DNA from: Fidelibacterota bacterium
GTDB taxonomy: Bacteria > Fidelibacterota > UBA8477
Assembly: GCA_021734045.1 (NCBI GenBank)
Contig: JAIPJR010000059.1
Location: forward strand, 1-18,105
Direction of reading: 5' to 3'
Length of the DNA stretch: 18,105 bases
Of the stretch, positions 570 through 5,137 are shown piece by piece; position 1 is the first letter of the stretch, and each line of letters begins with the position of its first letter. The translations under genes were made by a program, and so were the position numbers. The notes below the pieces were generated by a model. It was given only the letters and a program-made list of their open reading frames with translations, was not told where the DNA came from and did no database searches.

Positions 570-1046
570 TTATCCCCCCACCGATTGAAATGGAAAATTC
601 TTGTCCAGCCAGGTCTGGACAATGCCGTGCATCAGGGAAATTCCCCGAATGATTTCACGACGATTTTCCGAATTGGTATAGGCTAACATTTCCGAATGAA
701 TTTTGGTGTATTCATCCTGGAGCTTTTGCACAACACCGCGACCCTTGGTTGTAAGGCTGATATTAGAGTACCGGCGATCCTCATTGGATTGCACGCGCTT
801 CACCAGATCATTTGCCACCAAGCCATCGATGATGCGAGTCAGACGACTGGCCGACAATTTCATCGACATGGCCAGATCATGAACCGAGTAGACCGTATCT
901 TCATCCATAATGCGCAGGCAACGGAACTCCGCTACTTTCAGGTTATGATCCTTGGCAAACATTTTTTCTTTCACCTCACAGCAACGCAATAAATCGAATG
1001 TGAGATCGCTGACCGTGATGGCTTGTTCCCTTATTTCCTTATCCAT
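570..1046 (-). CDS. MarR-family transcriptional regulator
   Basis: This 158-residue protein has the layout of a MarR-type winged-helix DNA-binding dimer. An N-terminal helix (about 8-30) precedes the helix-turn-helix (about 52-78, with SVHDLAMSMKLSASRLTRIID), then the wing with the hallmark NEDRR (88-92) and SLTTKG, and a C-terminal helical dimerisation segment (105-150). Length is normal for the family. A strong Shine-Dalgarno (GAGGAGGC) lies 6 nt before the ATG. The gene is divergent from a flavin-reductase-like gene across a 202-nt spacer, the usual arrangement for a MarR protein that controls its neighbour and itself. Adjacent cysteines C22-C23 and a further C43 could sense oxidants, but the LCFALY motif typical of OhrR is not present, so the ligand is unknown. 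Confidence 0.88.
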   Translation of the reverse strand: MDKEIREQAITVSDLTFDLLRCCEVKEKMFAKDHNLKVAEFRCLRIMDEDTVYSVHDLAMSMKLSASRLTRIIDGLVANDLVKRVQSNEDRRYSNISLTTKGRGVVQKLQDEYTKIHSEMLAYTNSENRREIIRGISLMHGIVQTWLDKNFPFQSVGG

Positions 1047-1248: not shown

Positions 1249-1755
1249 ATGCAGAAACAAGTACCTTATAGCGAAGCGAAGTCGAAAAAATTTCCGGAAC
1301 CGGTGCATATCAGCATTATCAGGGATAAAAACGGCAAGTATAATCCCATCTCAATGGCTTGGGCCATGTTCACCAGTATTGACCCGCTCATGGTGGCGAT
1401 ATCTATCGGATTTGAGCGGTATTCGTACGATGCCATTGAGCACAGCGGTGAATTTGTGTTCGTGCTCCCCTCCGAATCCATGGGGGATTTGGTTGAATTC
1501 TTCGGGAATCATTCCGGTCGCGAAATGGACAAACTGGCTGAATCAGGCGCTAAAACCCAGCCGGCAACGAAAATTGATAATGTCCTGCTCTCTGACGCGG
1601 CAGCCAATTTTGAGTGTGTGGTAAAATCTAAAGTTCGCAGCGGTGATCACATGATTTATGCCGGGCTGGTGGTGGCCAGTCACATCAATACAGAACCGGC
1701 CAATCGGCTTTTTTCAGTGGAGCACCGGGTGTTTGGCGGGGTGAAGCCTAAATGA
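1249..1755 (+). CDS. Flavin reductase-like FMN-binding (split-barrel) protein
   Basis: This 168-residue protein resembles the flavin reductase/flavoredoxin family, cytosolic FMN-binding split barrels that reduce flavin with NAD(P)H or carry electrons. Family features in order are a strand with HISIIRDKNGKYNPISMAW (20-38), the flavin-contact segment with TSIDPLMVAISIG (42-54), the RYSYDAIEHSGEFVFVLPS stretch (57-75), and the later GREMDKLAESGAKTQPA (90-106) and FECVV (121-125) elements. Length is about 20 residues short of many homologues but the fold appears complete. The ATG at 1249 has only a weak upstream AGG. It is divergent from marR and convergent with the nucleoside phosphorylase gene, so it is probably monocistronic and MarR-controlled. 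Whether it is a true reductase or an FMN redox protein cannot be told from sequence. Confidence 0.82.
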   Translation: MQKQVPYSEAKSKKFPEPVHISIIRDKNGKYNPISMAWAMFTSIDPLMVAISIGFERYSYDAIEHSGEFVFVLPSESMGDLVEFFGNHSGREMDKLAESGAKTQPATKIDNVLLSDAAANFECVVKSKVRSGDHMIYAGLVVASHINTEPANRLFSVEHRVFGGVKPK

Positions 1756-1846: not shown

Positions 1847-3151
1847 TCACCCAATCTTTTCATAAATCAGAGTTGGCGTGTGAGCCGGTTCATCTCCAAT
1901 CTTAAAAACCTTCTCCATCTGTGACATTACCGAATCCAATGCCGGTTTTTTATTGGCGTGGATGGTTATGAGCGGTTCATTGGTTTGAACCTTTTCTCCC
2001 AGCCGCTTATGAATGACAAATCCGGTATCCGGATCAATTTTATCACTGGTTTTCCGCCGACCTGCATCCAGCTCAATTCCCAGAAATCCCAGTTGCATCG
2101 TATCAATGGTTTGGAGTGAACCGGAACGGGGCGCGGGATAATCCACACGATGTGTTGCCCTCGAGTGGTTATCAGGCTTTTCGAGGACTTTTGTATCACC
2201 ACCATGAAGGCGTGTTGTGGTCATGAATTTTTCCAGCGCAGCACCATTTTCGATCACGGCCAGCTGTGTCTTGTGAGCGTCCTCCGCTGATAGCTGCGGA
2301 TCTGCCATTTGGAGTATCTCAGCCCCTAATGCCAGCGTAACCATCATGAGGTCTTCCGGACCATTTCCTTGCAGGCCGGCAATGGATTCCTCCACTTCCA
2401 ACCAGTTACCGATCTTGCGTCCCAATGGTTGATTCATATCGGTGATGAGCGCCGTGGTTTGAATGCCATATAGTTTTCCGATGGCAACCAGCGATTCAGC
2501 GAGCGCTTTGGAATCGTCGTAACTTGGCATGAAAGCACCGGAGCCGGTTTTAACATCCAACACCAGTCCCTGAATGCCCTCGGCGATTTTTTTACTCATG
2601 ATGCTGGCGGAGATAAGTGGGATTGAGCGCACCGTCGCAGTCACATCCCGCAGGGCGTATAACTTTTTATCTGCGGGACAGATGTTTTTGGTTTGCCCGA
2701 TCAGGCTGACGCCGTTGGTGAGCACCATTTTCTGAAAATCATCCCCAGAGAGGTTCACGTTAAATCCCGGGATAGATTCCAGTTTATCCAGCGTCCCGCC
2801 GGTGTGACCCAATCCGCGCCCGGAGATCATGGGGATTTTAATGTCCAATGCCGCCAGCACGGGTGCCAGGATAAGGGAGACTTTGTCACCCACGCCTCCG
2901 GTGGAGTGTTTATCCGCCACAAAACCATCTGCTGCGGCAAAGTCCAGCCGGTCACCGGATTCCAACATCACCTTGGTGAGCGCCAGCGTCTCTTCATTCG
3001 TCATACCATTGATAAAAATGGCCATGAGTAATGCGCTCATTTGATAGTCTGGGATGTCATCCCGCGTGTATCCGTTGACAAAAAATGCTATTTCTTCCGG
3101 CGTTAATGCCTTGCCGTATGATTTTTTTTCAATGATCTGATAGGGCAACAT
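1847..3151 (-). CDS. deoA: Pyrimidine-nucleoside / thymidine phosphorylase
   Basis: This 434-residue enzyme performs phosphorolysis of pyrimidine nucleosides to free base plus (deoxy)ribose 1-phosphate in nucleoside salvage or catabolism. It shows the full family architecture: N-terminal helical domain, phosphate-binding KHSTGGVGDK (81-90), the family signature SGRGLGHTGGTLDKLE (110-125), and base-contact residues R168, S183 and K187 at the same numbers as in the Geobacillus enzyme. The C-terminal alpha/beta domain (about 345-434) is present. Residue 108 is Met, as at Met111 of E. coli thymidine phosphorylase, where pyrimidine-nucleoside phosphorylases with broad sugar use have Lys; this favours 2'-deoxynucleosides, hence deoA rather than pdp. 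The start has GAGGT 7 nt upstream. It lies 245 nt downstream of the ACT-domain gene on the same strand, with its own candidate promoter in that gap. Confidence 0.92.
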   Translation of the reverse strand: MLPYQIIEKKSYGKALTPEEIAFFVNGYTRDDIPDYQMSALLMAIFINGMTNEETLALTKVMLESGDRLDFAAADGFVADKHSTGGVGDKVSLILAPVLAALDIKIPMISGRGLGHTGGTLDKLESIPGFNVNLSGDDFQKMVLTNGVSLIGQTKNICPADKKLYALRDVTATVRSIPLISASIMSKKIAEGIQGLVLDVKTGSGAFMPSYDDSKALAESLVAIGKLYGIQTTALITDMNQPLGRKIGNWLEVEESIAGLQGNGPEDLMMVTLALGAEILQMADPQLSAEDAHKTQLAVIENGAALEKFMTTTRLHGGDTKVLEKPDNHSRATHRVDYPAPRSGSLQTIDTMQLGFLGIELDAGRRKTSDKIDPDTGFVIHKRLGEKVQTNEPLITIHANKKPALDSVMSQMEKVFKIGDEPAHTPTLIYEKIG

Positions 3152-3396
3152 GGGAGAACCTCGTTTTCAATTATTAATGGATGGATAATGTAATACGAAC
3201 AGTGCCAAATCAGGCATGGGTATGTGGGTGATCAAGTGAACGAGGAAGTGCGTGAGAGAAATACCCAATCACACCAGCTGAATCTCAAAACGGTCCATCG
3301 GACAAGGCTGATGAAGTAGCGTAACGCAAGTTGAGCTGCATTTAGCAGCAGAAAATTAATCGCTGGTTATATATCCGAGATTGGTGTTAAGACAAA
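3152..3396 (-). other. 245-nt untranslated leader/spacer upstream of deoA
   Basis: No open frame of family resemblance is seen here on either strand. If the promoter at 3368-3395 is used, about 210 nt form the 5' leader of deoA. The leader contains a small hairpin (GCTGC-TAAAT-GCAGC) without a following T-tract. I recognise no riboswitch class or tRNA. The length is unusual in an otherwise compact region. Confidence 0.4.
3368..3395 (-). promoter_or_regulatory. Candidate sigma70-type promoter for deoA
   Basis: On the minus strand TTGTCT (3395-3390) and TATATA (3373-3368) are spaced by 16 nt, directly after the ACT-gene stop. It would start a separate deoA transcript near 3361 and suggests that deoA can be expressed apart from the upstream pair. 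Confidence 0.45.
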
Positions 3397-3825
3397 TTAA
3401 AGTCGGTCCATGGCGGTGAAGACCGCTTCATTCTGCACAAAAATTTTCACACCCAATTGATTGGCGCTTTGATTGAGCTGCTCCTTTAATCCGGTCATAT
3501 CCAGCGCGCTGGTCCCGATATCCACCACCATGATCATGGTGAACAGGTCGCCCATAATTTTTTGTGAAATGTCAATGATATTGCAGCGGTTTTGTGCCAG
3601 CACACCGGTAACACCAGCCAAAATGCCCATTTTATTGTGTCCGAAAATGGAGACCACCACACGATTGGTAAGGTCGGCCGGTTCACCGGAGGTGGTTTGC
3701 TGAGAATCAATTTCCCGAATGGCTTCGGTAGCCGCCGTTTTTATCAACGCCGGAGAGGCATCGGGACCCAGCTTTTCTCGGATTGAGATGACGATATTTC
3801 GAATCTGTTCTTCGCTAAGTGCCAT
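3397..3825 (-). CDS. ACT-domain protein (UPF0237-like) with N-terminal helical extension
   Basis: This 142-residue protein ends in a single ACT domain (about 54-142: RVVVSIFGHNKMGILAGVTG, then NIIDISQKIMGDLFTMIMVVDI), closest in style to the small UPF0237/YheI-like ACT proteins thought to bind small ligands such as amino acids. Unlike those proteins of about 90 residues, it has a 50-residue front. That front starts with an amphipathic helix (SEEQIRNIVISIREKLG, 4-20; I8, I11, V12, I15 and L19 fall on one face), followed by a second helix (24-39) and a polar linker. The helix-plus-linker pattern resembles encapsulation peptides that target enzymes to microcompartments. The gene is 20 nt downstream of an EutN/CcmL vertex gene, so the two are almost certainly cotranscribed. 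Its ligand and role are unknown. The start is an ATG with a weak GGA upstream. Confidence 0.8.
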   Translation of the reverse strand: MALSEEQIRNIVISIREKLGPDASPALIKTAATEAIREIDSQQTTSGEPADLTNRVVVSIFGHNKMGILAGVTGVLAQNRCNIIDISQKIMGDLFTMIMVVDIGTSALDMTGLKEQLNQSANQLGVKIFVQNEAVFTAMDRL

Positions 3826-3845
3826 GTTAAAATTTCCGTAAGTTG

Positions 3846-4172
3846 CTATGAACCGTGTTTATCCGCTGTAGCAGCTAAAACGCGTTGAATAAGCTGATCA
3901 TCTGTCTCCAGGGAATCCACGATACCAATCACTGCTGCCTCAATGGCAAGCTCCGTCGGATTGGCGGGCTGGACTGCTTTCCGCGCTGCGTGTCCATAGG
4001 CACAAATCACATCTTCACCCACACCGGCACCCAATATATCAGCGACGATCACCATGCTTTGTGTCGGTGCCTTATCCAGTTCCTTGGGGTGGACGATGAG
4101 AAACCGCAGATTTTTTACTTCTGCCACTTTTTTCGTTGACCAGACGGTTCCAACCACGGTTCCTAAAAACAT
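3846..4172 (-). CDS. EutN/CcmL-family microcompartment vertex protein
   Basis: The encoded protein of 108 residues belongs to the EutN/CcmL/PduN family, pentamers that cap the vertices of bacterial microcompartment shells. Visible family features are the opening strand MFLGTVVGTVWSTKK, then LRFLIVHP, the VADILGAGVGEDVICAYGHAAR segment that surrounds the pore and contains the conserved GAG turn, and the closing A.VIGIVD strand. An in-frame ATG at 4238 exists, but family length and the motif begin at 4172, where AAGGA lies 7-11 nt upstream; I therefore use 4172. The C-terminus extends about 10-15 residues beyond minimal members. It is first in a minus-strand unit with the ACT protein and lies upstream of a nucleoside phosphorylase. 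No BMC hexamer (BMC-H/T) gene is in the window, so it is either an outlying shell component or an orphan. Confidence 0.9.
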   Translation of the reverse strand: MFLGTVVGTVWSTKKVAEVKNLRFLIVHPKELDKAPTQSMVIVADILGAGVGEDVICAYGHAARKAVQPANPTELAIEAAVIGIVDSLETDDQLIQRVLAATADKHGS

Positions 4173-4197
4173 CTGAATTCCTTCTGTTTGTGGCGCG

Positions 4198-4226
4198 AAT
4201 TTAGAGGGAGGTGTAATACAATTCAA
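4198..4226 (-). promoter_or_regulatory. Candidate promoter for the EutN-ACT unit
   Basis: On the minus strand TTGAAT (4226-4221) and TAAATT (4203-4198) are separated by exactly 17 nt. Transcription would begin near 4191, leaving a leader of about 19 nt that carries the AAGGA ribosome binding site. Confidence 0.5.
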
Positions 4227-4297
4227 GGGAAAGGGCATTGGTAATGTGATAAAAAATCTCTTTGCTTCCCAACGGGCGGCATGGCTACTATCGGTCG

Positions 4298-4326
4298 TTG
4301 TTTTTGCCTGACGGGGCGGCTATATT
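4298..4326 (+). promoter_or_regulatory. Candidate promoter for the parA-led operon
   Basis: TTGTTT (4298-4303) and TATATT (4321-4326) are separated by 17 nt. Transcription would begin about 45 nt before parA. It is divergent from the promoter of the EutN unit, with about 70 nt between the two -35 boxes. Confidence 0.55.
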
Positions 4327-4375
4327 GCTCCGCTTTGGTGGGGTGTTGTTGAAAATTGTTGATAATCAAGGACTT

Positions 4376-5137
4376 ATGGGAAAAATAATCGCGATTGTGA
4401 ATCAGAAGGGTGGGGTTGGTAAAACCACCACTTCGGTGAATCTTGCGGCCGGTTTGGCGGTTGCCGAGCAAAAAACCCTGCTGGTTGACATGGACCCCCA
4501 ATCCAATGCGACCACCGGTATCGGTATTCACATCAATGGCGAAATTCCCAATGTTTACCAGGTTCTCCTGGGACAGAACCCGGTACGGGAAGTCATCCAG
4601 AAATCCCAGCTTCCCTACCTGGATGTGTTGCCTGCGAATCCCTCCCTGGTGGGTGCCGAAGTGGAATTGATTGCTGCTATCGCCCGGGAGCGGATATTGA
4701 AAAATGCCCTGTCGGAGCTGGAAAATGAATACGATTTTACCATTATTGATTGTCCACCTTCACTGGGATTACTGACACTCAATTCCCTCACAGCGGCCGA
4801 TTCGCTTATCATACCCATTCAGTGCGAATATTATGCACTGGAAGGGCTGGGGCAGCTTTTGAATACGGTGCGCCAAGTGCAGAAATCGGTGAATAAGGCG
4901 CTGGTGATCGAAGGTGTGGTCATGACCATGTACGATAGCCGTCTGAATCTAAGTAAGCAGGTGGTGGACGAGGTGAGGTCCTATTTTAAAGACCGTGTGT
5001 ATAAGACCTTCATCAACCGAAATGTGCGCCTCAGTGAAGCACCCAGTTTTGGTAAACCCATTATTTTATATGACGCCACCTCCACCGGTGCCGTGAATTA
5101 TATGAATTTAGTCGAGGAGCTCCTGGAGCGTGCCTGA
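4376..5137 (+). CDS. parA: ParA/Soj chromosome-partitioning ATPase
   Basis: This 253-residue P-loop ATPase of the ParA/MinD superfamily binds nucleoid DNA as an ATP dimer and, with ParB, moves the origin region during segregation. The deviant Walker A KGGVGKTT (11-18, with signature Lys11 and Lys16) opens the protein. The DMDPQSNATTG switch follows, then Walker B IIDCPPSLGLLT, and the ERNVRLSEAPSFG-like segment typical of chromosomal Soj proteins (here INRNVRLSEAPSFGKP). The longer frame from 4262 has no family match before MGKIIAIVNQ, and AAGGA sits just before the ATG at 4376, so that start is used. The gene leads a tightly packed operon and overlaps parB by 8 nt. Confidence 0.95.
   Translation: MGKIIAIVNQKGGVGKTTTSVNLAAGLAVAEQKTLLVDMDPQSNATTGIGIHINGEIPNVYQVLLGQNPVREVIQKSQLPYLDVLPANPSLVGAEVELIAAIARERILKNALSELENEYDFTIIDCPPSLGLLTLNSLTAADSLIIPIQCEYYALEGLGQLLNTVRQVQKSVNKALVIEGVVMTMYDSRLNLSKQVVDEVRSYFKDRVYKTFINRNVRLSEAPSFGKPIILYDATSTGAVNYMNLVEELLERA

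Follow-up and report, generated by a model that had tools for sequence, protein, structure and literature searches.

We analysed an 18,105-nucleotide contig of a Fidelibacterota bacterium (hereafter the window; JAIPJR010000059.1 of assembly GCA_021734045.1, our contig C23), which belongs to a 2.54-Mb metagenome-assembled genome, 92% complete, whose nearest named relatives are Ca. Neomarinimicrobiota. On its minus strand, the window carries genes for a vertex protein of bacterial microcompartments (BMCs), an ACT protein and a DeoA-like phosphorylase. We propose, with a probability of about two in three, that the vertex protein and the ACT protein form a satellite locus of a single dispersed metabolosome, most likely degrading deoxyribose from DNA. 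The phosphorylase is a member of the pathway, but came to lie next to ACT through a rearrangement specific to this lineage. The three genes are the following:

3846-4172, minus strand: BMC-P, an EutN/CcmL vertex protein of the clade here called BMC-P1 (PF03319, E 1.4e-21)
3397-3825, minus strand: ACT protein (UPF0237/PRK00194) with an N-terminal tail (PF13740, E 8.7e-16; PRK00194, 98.3 bits)
1847-3151, minus strand: DeoA-like pyrimidine-nucleoside/thymidine phosphorylase (TIGR02644 and NF004490, both above cut-off)

These family matches agree with the initial annotation, which had read the three genes as EutN/CcmL, ACT and thymidine-phosphorylase-like. The BMC-P start used is that of the 3846-4172 version, homologues beginning with MFLG, and not that of a longer open reading frame (ORF) from 4238. 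The ACT protein exceeds the PRK00194 cut-off of 74 bits and is thus a UPF0237 member, its ACT domain starting at residue 55 (55-141) after ~50 extra N-terminal residues. The DeoA-like protein, of standard length and without a tail, scores 549 bits with TIGR02644 (cut-off 409) and 543 with the thymidine phosphorylase model NF004490 (cut-off 269). The gap between BMC-P and ACT is 20 bp, that between ACT and DeoA 245 bp, and, as had been remarked for hexamer shell genes, no BMC-H or BMC-T gene lies within the window.

A vertex protein-ACT pair conserved across phyla

BMC-P and ACT are a conserved pair across phyla. Among the loci encoding relatives of the window vertex protein, 32 rows have BMC-P and ACT as immediate neighbours on one strand; as L028 and L178 represent a single contig, these are 31 distinct places, mainly in Calditrichota, Neomarinimicrobiota and Acidobacteriota, and DUF711 is found immediately downstream in 23 of the 29 rows with room for it. 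In Zixibacteria, BMC-H, BMC-P, PduS, BMC-T, ACT and DUF711 form one cluster (L049), the same set being interrupted by other genes in L041, while Pyrinomonas groups BMC-H, aldehyde dehydrogenase (AldDH), BMC-P, ACT, DUF711 and BMC-H in a single cluster. The vertex-protein tree, which rests on short sequences and has weak deep forks, places the window BMC-P in a clade of 44 (support 100/100) containing all 30 ACT-neighbour BMC-Ps, and the vertex proteins neighbouring DeoC outside this BMC-P1 clade, in two other groups.

Co-occurrence was scored in 199 genomes of the phylum, with Fisher p values not corrected for relatedness. BMC-P was present in 46, DUF711 in 10 and ACT above cut-off in 6 of them; all six ACT genomes had BMC-P (p 1e-4) and DUF711 (p 3e-9), and 9 of the 10 DUF711 genomes had BMC-P (p 8e-6). 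Two genomes with BMC-P, G087 and G204, lack DUF711 and have an ACT that is tailed but diverged, and this divergence of ACT where DUF711 is absent suggests that the two proteins act together.

No tail was found on DUF711 itself, which aligns along its whole length with a non-BMC protein of pneumococcus (533 bits). The same two families are represented in Streptococcus pneumoniae by UPF0237 and UPF0210 proteins (1ZPV, ACT; 2HA9, SP0239), the 1ZPV protein having 91 aa and, unlike the window ACT, no tail; we know of no link between these pneumococcal proteins and a shell. The ten-stranded barrel superfamily of DUF711 is common to ribonucleotide reductase (RNR) and to pyruvate formate-lyase (PFL) and other glycyl radical enzymes (GREs) (PMC4390871).

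The AlphaFold2 (AF2) model of the window ACT predicts helices at residues 5-19 and 25-45, followed by a low-confidence linker and a confident ACT fold, which makes residues 1-45 a candidate two-helix tail resembling an encapsulation peptide. Because a single-helix hydrophobic-moment test of this tail was not significant (p 0.31), a family-wide profile test was added, based on hand-picked training stretches of 14 DeoC and AldDH tails and read at a threshold of 8 bits. This score was reached by 15 of 24 ACT N-termini, against 18 of 1,298 other proteins, several of the latter being apparent BMC AldDHs. In the window genome, the ends of ACT, AldDH and DeoC score 3.0, 2.1 and 7.9 bits, ranking in the top 17%, 10% and 4% of ends, so that the case for a targeting tail on any single protein would lean on family conservation and on structure models. 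At another locus (L039, 4954-5496), an ORF that starts as PduS continues directly as an ACT domain, through an assembly deletion or as a true fusion.

Compartment parts dispersed over the genome

The genome-wide search with PF00936 and PF03319 that the initial annotation had called for returned BMC-H and BMC-T genes, and the vertex gene is therefore no orphan; with BMC-H, BMC-T and BMC-P, the genome encodes the complete range of shell protein types. The only BMC-H gene (PF00936, 101 bits) is on C113, flanked by LpxH and other genes. A single two-domain, PduT-like BMC-T gene is found on C59 in tandem with a PduS/RnfC-like gene; its product matches TIGR02526 at 143 bits, under the 250-bit cut-off, and bears the motif SICPG, whose Cys we take to be the Fe-S cluster site of PduT. 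The window BMC-P is the only PF03319 match.

The enzymes are located on yet other contigs. AldDH (C110) has as its best match TIGR02518, acetaldehyde dehydrogenase (acetylating), at 540 bits, below the cut-off of 620; the alignment stops at residue 451 of 517, leaving a 66-residue C-terminal tail that ends in LTDEEVEKIIRDLNS. DUF711 (UPF0210), on C83, scores 703 bits with PRK05313 (cut-off 440; PF05167, E 2e-182). The one DeoC gene, on C97, matches TIGR00126 at 290 bits (cut-off 117) over residues 107-315 and encodes a DeoC-type aldolase (PF01791). Shell genes thus occur at several genomic locations (C23, C59 and C113), and each of the three genomes of the genus retains BMC-H, BMC-T, BMC-P and ACT. 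The Zixibacteria and Pyrinomonas clusters show that what is scattered in the window genome is one cluster elsewhere.

Several arrangements were seen around these parts. A same-genus locus (L100, 9023-11532) has a full BMC-T and a second partial copy with other genes between them. LpxH adjoins BMC-H, as a single gene or a tandem pair, in L060, L101, L102, L104, L107 and L112, from several Neomarinimicrobiota and one Calditrichota. Near the DUF711 of the window genome (L113, 714-2848) lie a 3-hydroxyacyl-CoA dehydrogenase-like gene and an acetate kinase gene, a related pair being found near BMC-H in L104.

The proposed deoxyribose route and competing readings

The link to deoxyribose comes through DeoC. 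The DeoC of the window genome has ~106 residues ahead of its aldolase domain, in which the AF2 model predicts an isolated helix (35-52) within disorder before the barrel, and has the invariant residues D193, K255 and K284, which we take to be the known catalytic residues. DeoC ORFs are 281-330 aa long in all 18 BMC genomes outside Zixibacteria that have no BMC-P triplet; in genomes without BMC-P, DeoC is mostly 228-265 aa, being longer in 4 of 14, three of which are distant matches. A PGM-like gene, a vertex gene of another type (BMC-P2), DeoC and DeoA stand in one row in G003, G004 and G006 (Calditrichota) and in G010, and the first three do so in seven Neomarinimicrobiota (G087, G108, G116, G147, G158, G183 and G204). 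Since PGM-like genes are found beside DeoC also in genomes without BMC-P, that pair alone is no sign of a BMC. Other members of the phylum encode RpiB-DeoC fusions next to BMC-H and several BMC-Ps, and the window DeoA is 47-63% identical to the DeoA adjoining BMC-P2-DeoC in other phyla. In family f17 of Neomarinimicrobiota (L182, L183 and L236), citrate-lyase-like genes, named by eye, follow the PGM-like, BMC-P2 and DeoC genes.

We propose a model in which DeoA and a putative mutase would supply deoxyribose-5-phosphate to encapsulated DeoC, whose product acetaldehyde would be converted by AldDH to acetyl-CoA. The NADH could be reoxidised by PduS, the electrons probably leaving through the PduT-like BMC-T as an Fe-S-type pore, and ACT could by its tail either bring DUF711 into the lumen or regulate it. 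Gene content, synteny, conservation, co-occurrence and the helices predicted in the tails are observations, whereas encapsulation, the substrate, the electron route, the partnership of ACT with DUF711 and the chemistry of DUF711 are inferences. The route from DeoA through DeoC to acetaldehyde had already been suggested in the initial annotation, and it is backed genome-wide by the helix-tailed DeoC, the tailed AldDH and the DeoC-DeoA-vertex cluster of Calditrichota. The enzymes expected with it were recovered in part: DeoC, AldDH and a phosphotransacylase gene, Pta, were found, and a PduL-type phosphotransacylase was not found by family search of the genome.

The suggestion that the locus is a satellite of a nucleoside-catabolising BMC is thus supported for the pathway and for the BMC-P/ACT satellite; it had been founded, however, on the adjacency of EutN, ACT and DeoA, which did not survive comparison with relatives. 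DeoA lies within 5 kb of the BMC-P/ACT pair in the window only, among ~31 loci, and the nearest relative, a member of the same genus whose vertex protein is 97% identical, has deoA on a different contig; the adjacency is therefore lineage-specific. In the same-genus genome G001/G069, deoA stands with a NUDIX/MarR block on C146 and BMC-P-ACT on C144, where a block of X, SecF, SecD, a dehydrogenase and DUF711 comes next. This block follows ACT on its far side in L005 and L006, and in the window genome it is on C83, away from ACT. From gene order, the best reading is a breakpoint in the 245-bp gap that separates ACT from deoA, and DeoA was rejected as a conserved member of a BMC-P-ACT operon, the adjacency being absent from L005, L006 and all other ACT loci. 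The features around these genes are the following:

3152-3396, no strand: ACT-DeoA intergenic stretch, putative rearrangement breakpoint (gene order in L005 and L006)
570-1046, minus strand: MarR regulator, older neighbour of deoA (NUDIX and MarR genes beside deoA on C146 of G001)
1249-1755, plus strand: flavin reductase, with MarR an older neighbour of deoA
4376-5137, plus strand: chromosomal ParA, divergent from BMC-P (ORF, start set at MGKIIAIVNQKGGVGKTT)

BMC-P and ParA diverge over 203 bp (4173-4375), and a ParA divergent from BMC-P1-ACT or from ACT-DUF711 recurs in other Neomarinimicrobiota families (L005, L006, L030, G147, G158 and G183); we do not claim this ParA as part of the compartment. 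In Calditrichota BMC loci, an orphan ParA-type ATPase is encoded between BMC-H and Pta (L096, 14413-15177; L097, 10801-11574; L098, 2026-2775) and might, by analogy with McdA for carboxysomes, position the compartment.

Several observations weigh against a deoxyribose metabolosome. The genome lacks a detectable PduL, and Pta is a stand-alone gene; DeoC adjoins no shell gene, in a genome with one BMC-P only; and the tails of the window ACT and AldDH score weakly with the profile. Moreover, in Zixibacteria, whose BMC comes with ACT and DUF711, DeoC is short (226-245 aa), and ACT-DUF711 is therefore not strictly tied to DeoC. These last genomes, together with the fact that no other neighbour of BMC-P1 is as widely conserved as ACT-DUF711 and with the barrel that DUF711 has in common with RNR and GREs, speak for a BMC handling another aldehyde, with DUF711 and ACT as the signature enzyme and DeoC and DeoA as ordinary salvage enzymes making use of the compartment only in some lineages. 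We hold this to be improbable, though to be reckoned with, since each of the 18 other BMC genomes examined has a tailed DeoC, a dedicated BMC-P2-DeoC operon exists, DUF711 is tail-less and matches a non-BMC protein over its full length, and G087 and G204 keep BMC-P and a tailed ACT without DUF711.

It is very unlikely that the scattered shell genes are vestiges, with no compartment being formed. The separate contigs, the lone BMC-P and the missing PduL would fit such a loss, but the shell genes and ACT persist throughout the genus, the BMC-P-ACT pair is kept across phyla and every ACT-positive genome is BMC-P-positive; an orphan vertex protein with chance neighbours was accordingly rejected. 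Just as doubtful is a selected operon of BMC-P, ACT and DeoA in this lineage: the three genes share a strand and DeoA, found beside BMC-P2-DeoC in Calditrichota, belongs to the pathway, but the 245-bp gap and the gene orders of relatives, which place the breakpoint in that gap and DeoA away from ACT, argue otherwise. The dispersed deoxyribose metabolosome is thus the reading that we retain.

Known systems and significance

The compartment would work like the sugar phosphate-using (SPU) type and is dispersed like the FRAG type. In the 2021 BMC catalog, DeoC and RpiB are common to SPU loci (Sutter et al. 2021, PMC8217296), a hallmark pair found here as fusions beside shell genes in other members of the phylum; likeness to them would lie in the DeoC-type aldolase, the AldDH, the toxic intermediate acetaldehyde and DNA debris as substrate, whereas the genes of the window genome are dispersed and ACT-DUF711 is present. 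FRAG BMCs, to which the main text of that catalog gives no function, likewise have shell genes at several locations, mostly far from known enzymes, in candidate phyla (PMC8217296). We file the compartment under neither type, since its parts, on different contigs, do not form the contiguous main locus of SPU (BMC-H, BMC-P and enzymes) and its single PF03319 match is not the BMC-P triplet common in FRAG. The MIC locus of Caldithrix abyssi has AldDH, a pta-type phosphotransacylase and PduS and lacks a signature enzyme (Axen et al. 2014, PMC4207490). It resembles the main loci that we found in Calditrichota (BMC-H, Pta, tailed AldDH, EutJ-like, PduS and BMC-T); its BMC-P1-ACT-DUF711 and BMC-P2-DeoC-DeoA satellites are those that we describe for other members of that phylum.

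Neither ACT nor DUF711 is named in the main text of the 2021 catalog (PMC8217296). Our literature searches found no paper on DUF711 with a microcompartment, and those on Calditrichaeota, Pyrinomonas, FRAG, and deoxyribose with an encapsulation peptide found nothing describing this gene set. The new element is the association of an ACT-DUF711 module with this compartment. A tentative extension is that this module was recruited, the RNR/PFL-barrel protein possibly catalysing a new encapsulated reaction on deoxyribose or a related substrate, with ACT as sensor and targeting adaptor.

The dispersed FRAG shells of the 2021 catalog and the Caldithrix locus of the 2014 survey had been left without a function or a signature enzyme, and the conserved pairs that join the dispersed parts now point to a testable substrate, deoxyribose-5-phosphate. 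UPF0237 and UPF0210/DUF711 are widespread families of unknown function, and their link to a shell gene gives a first handle on it. Caldithrix abyssi, which is cultured, is a member of the Calditrichota, the phylum in which the operons are clearest. If the ACT-DUF711 module acts as suggested, the dispersed FRAG-like shells of several candidate phyla would be deoxynucleoside organelles.
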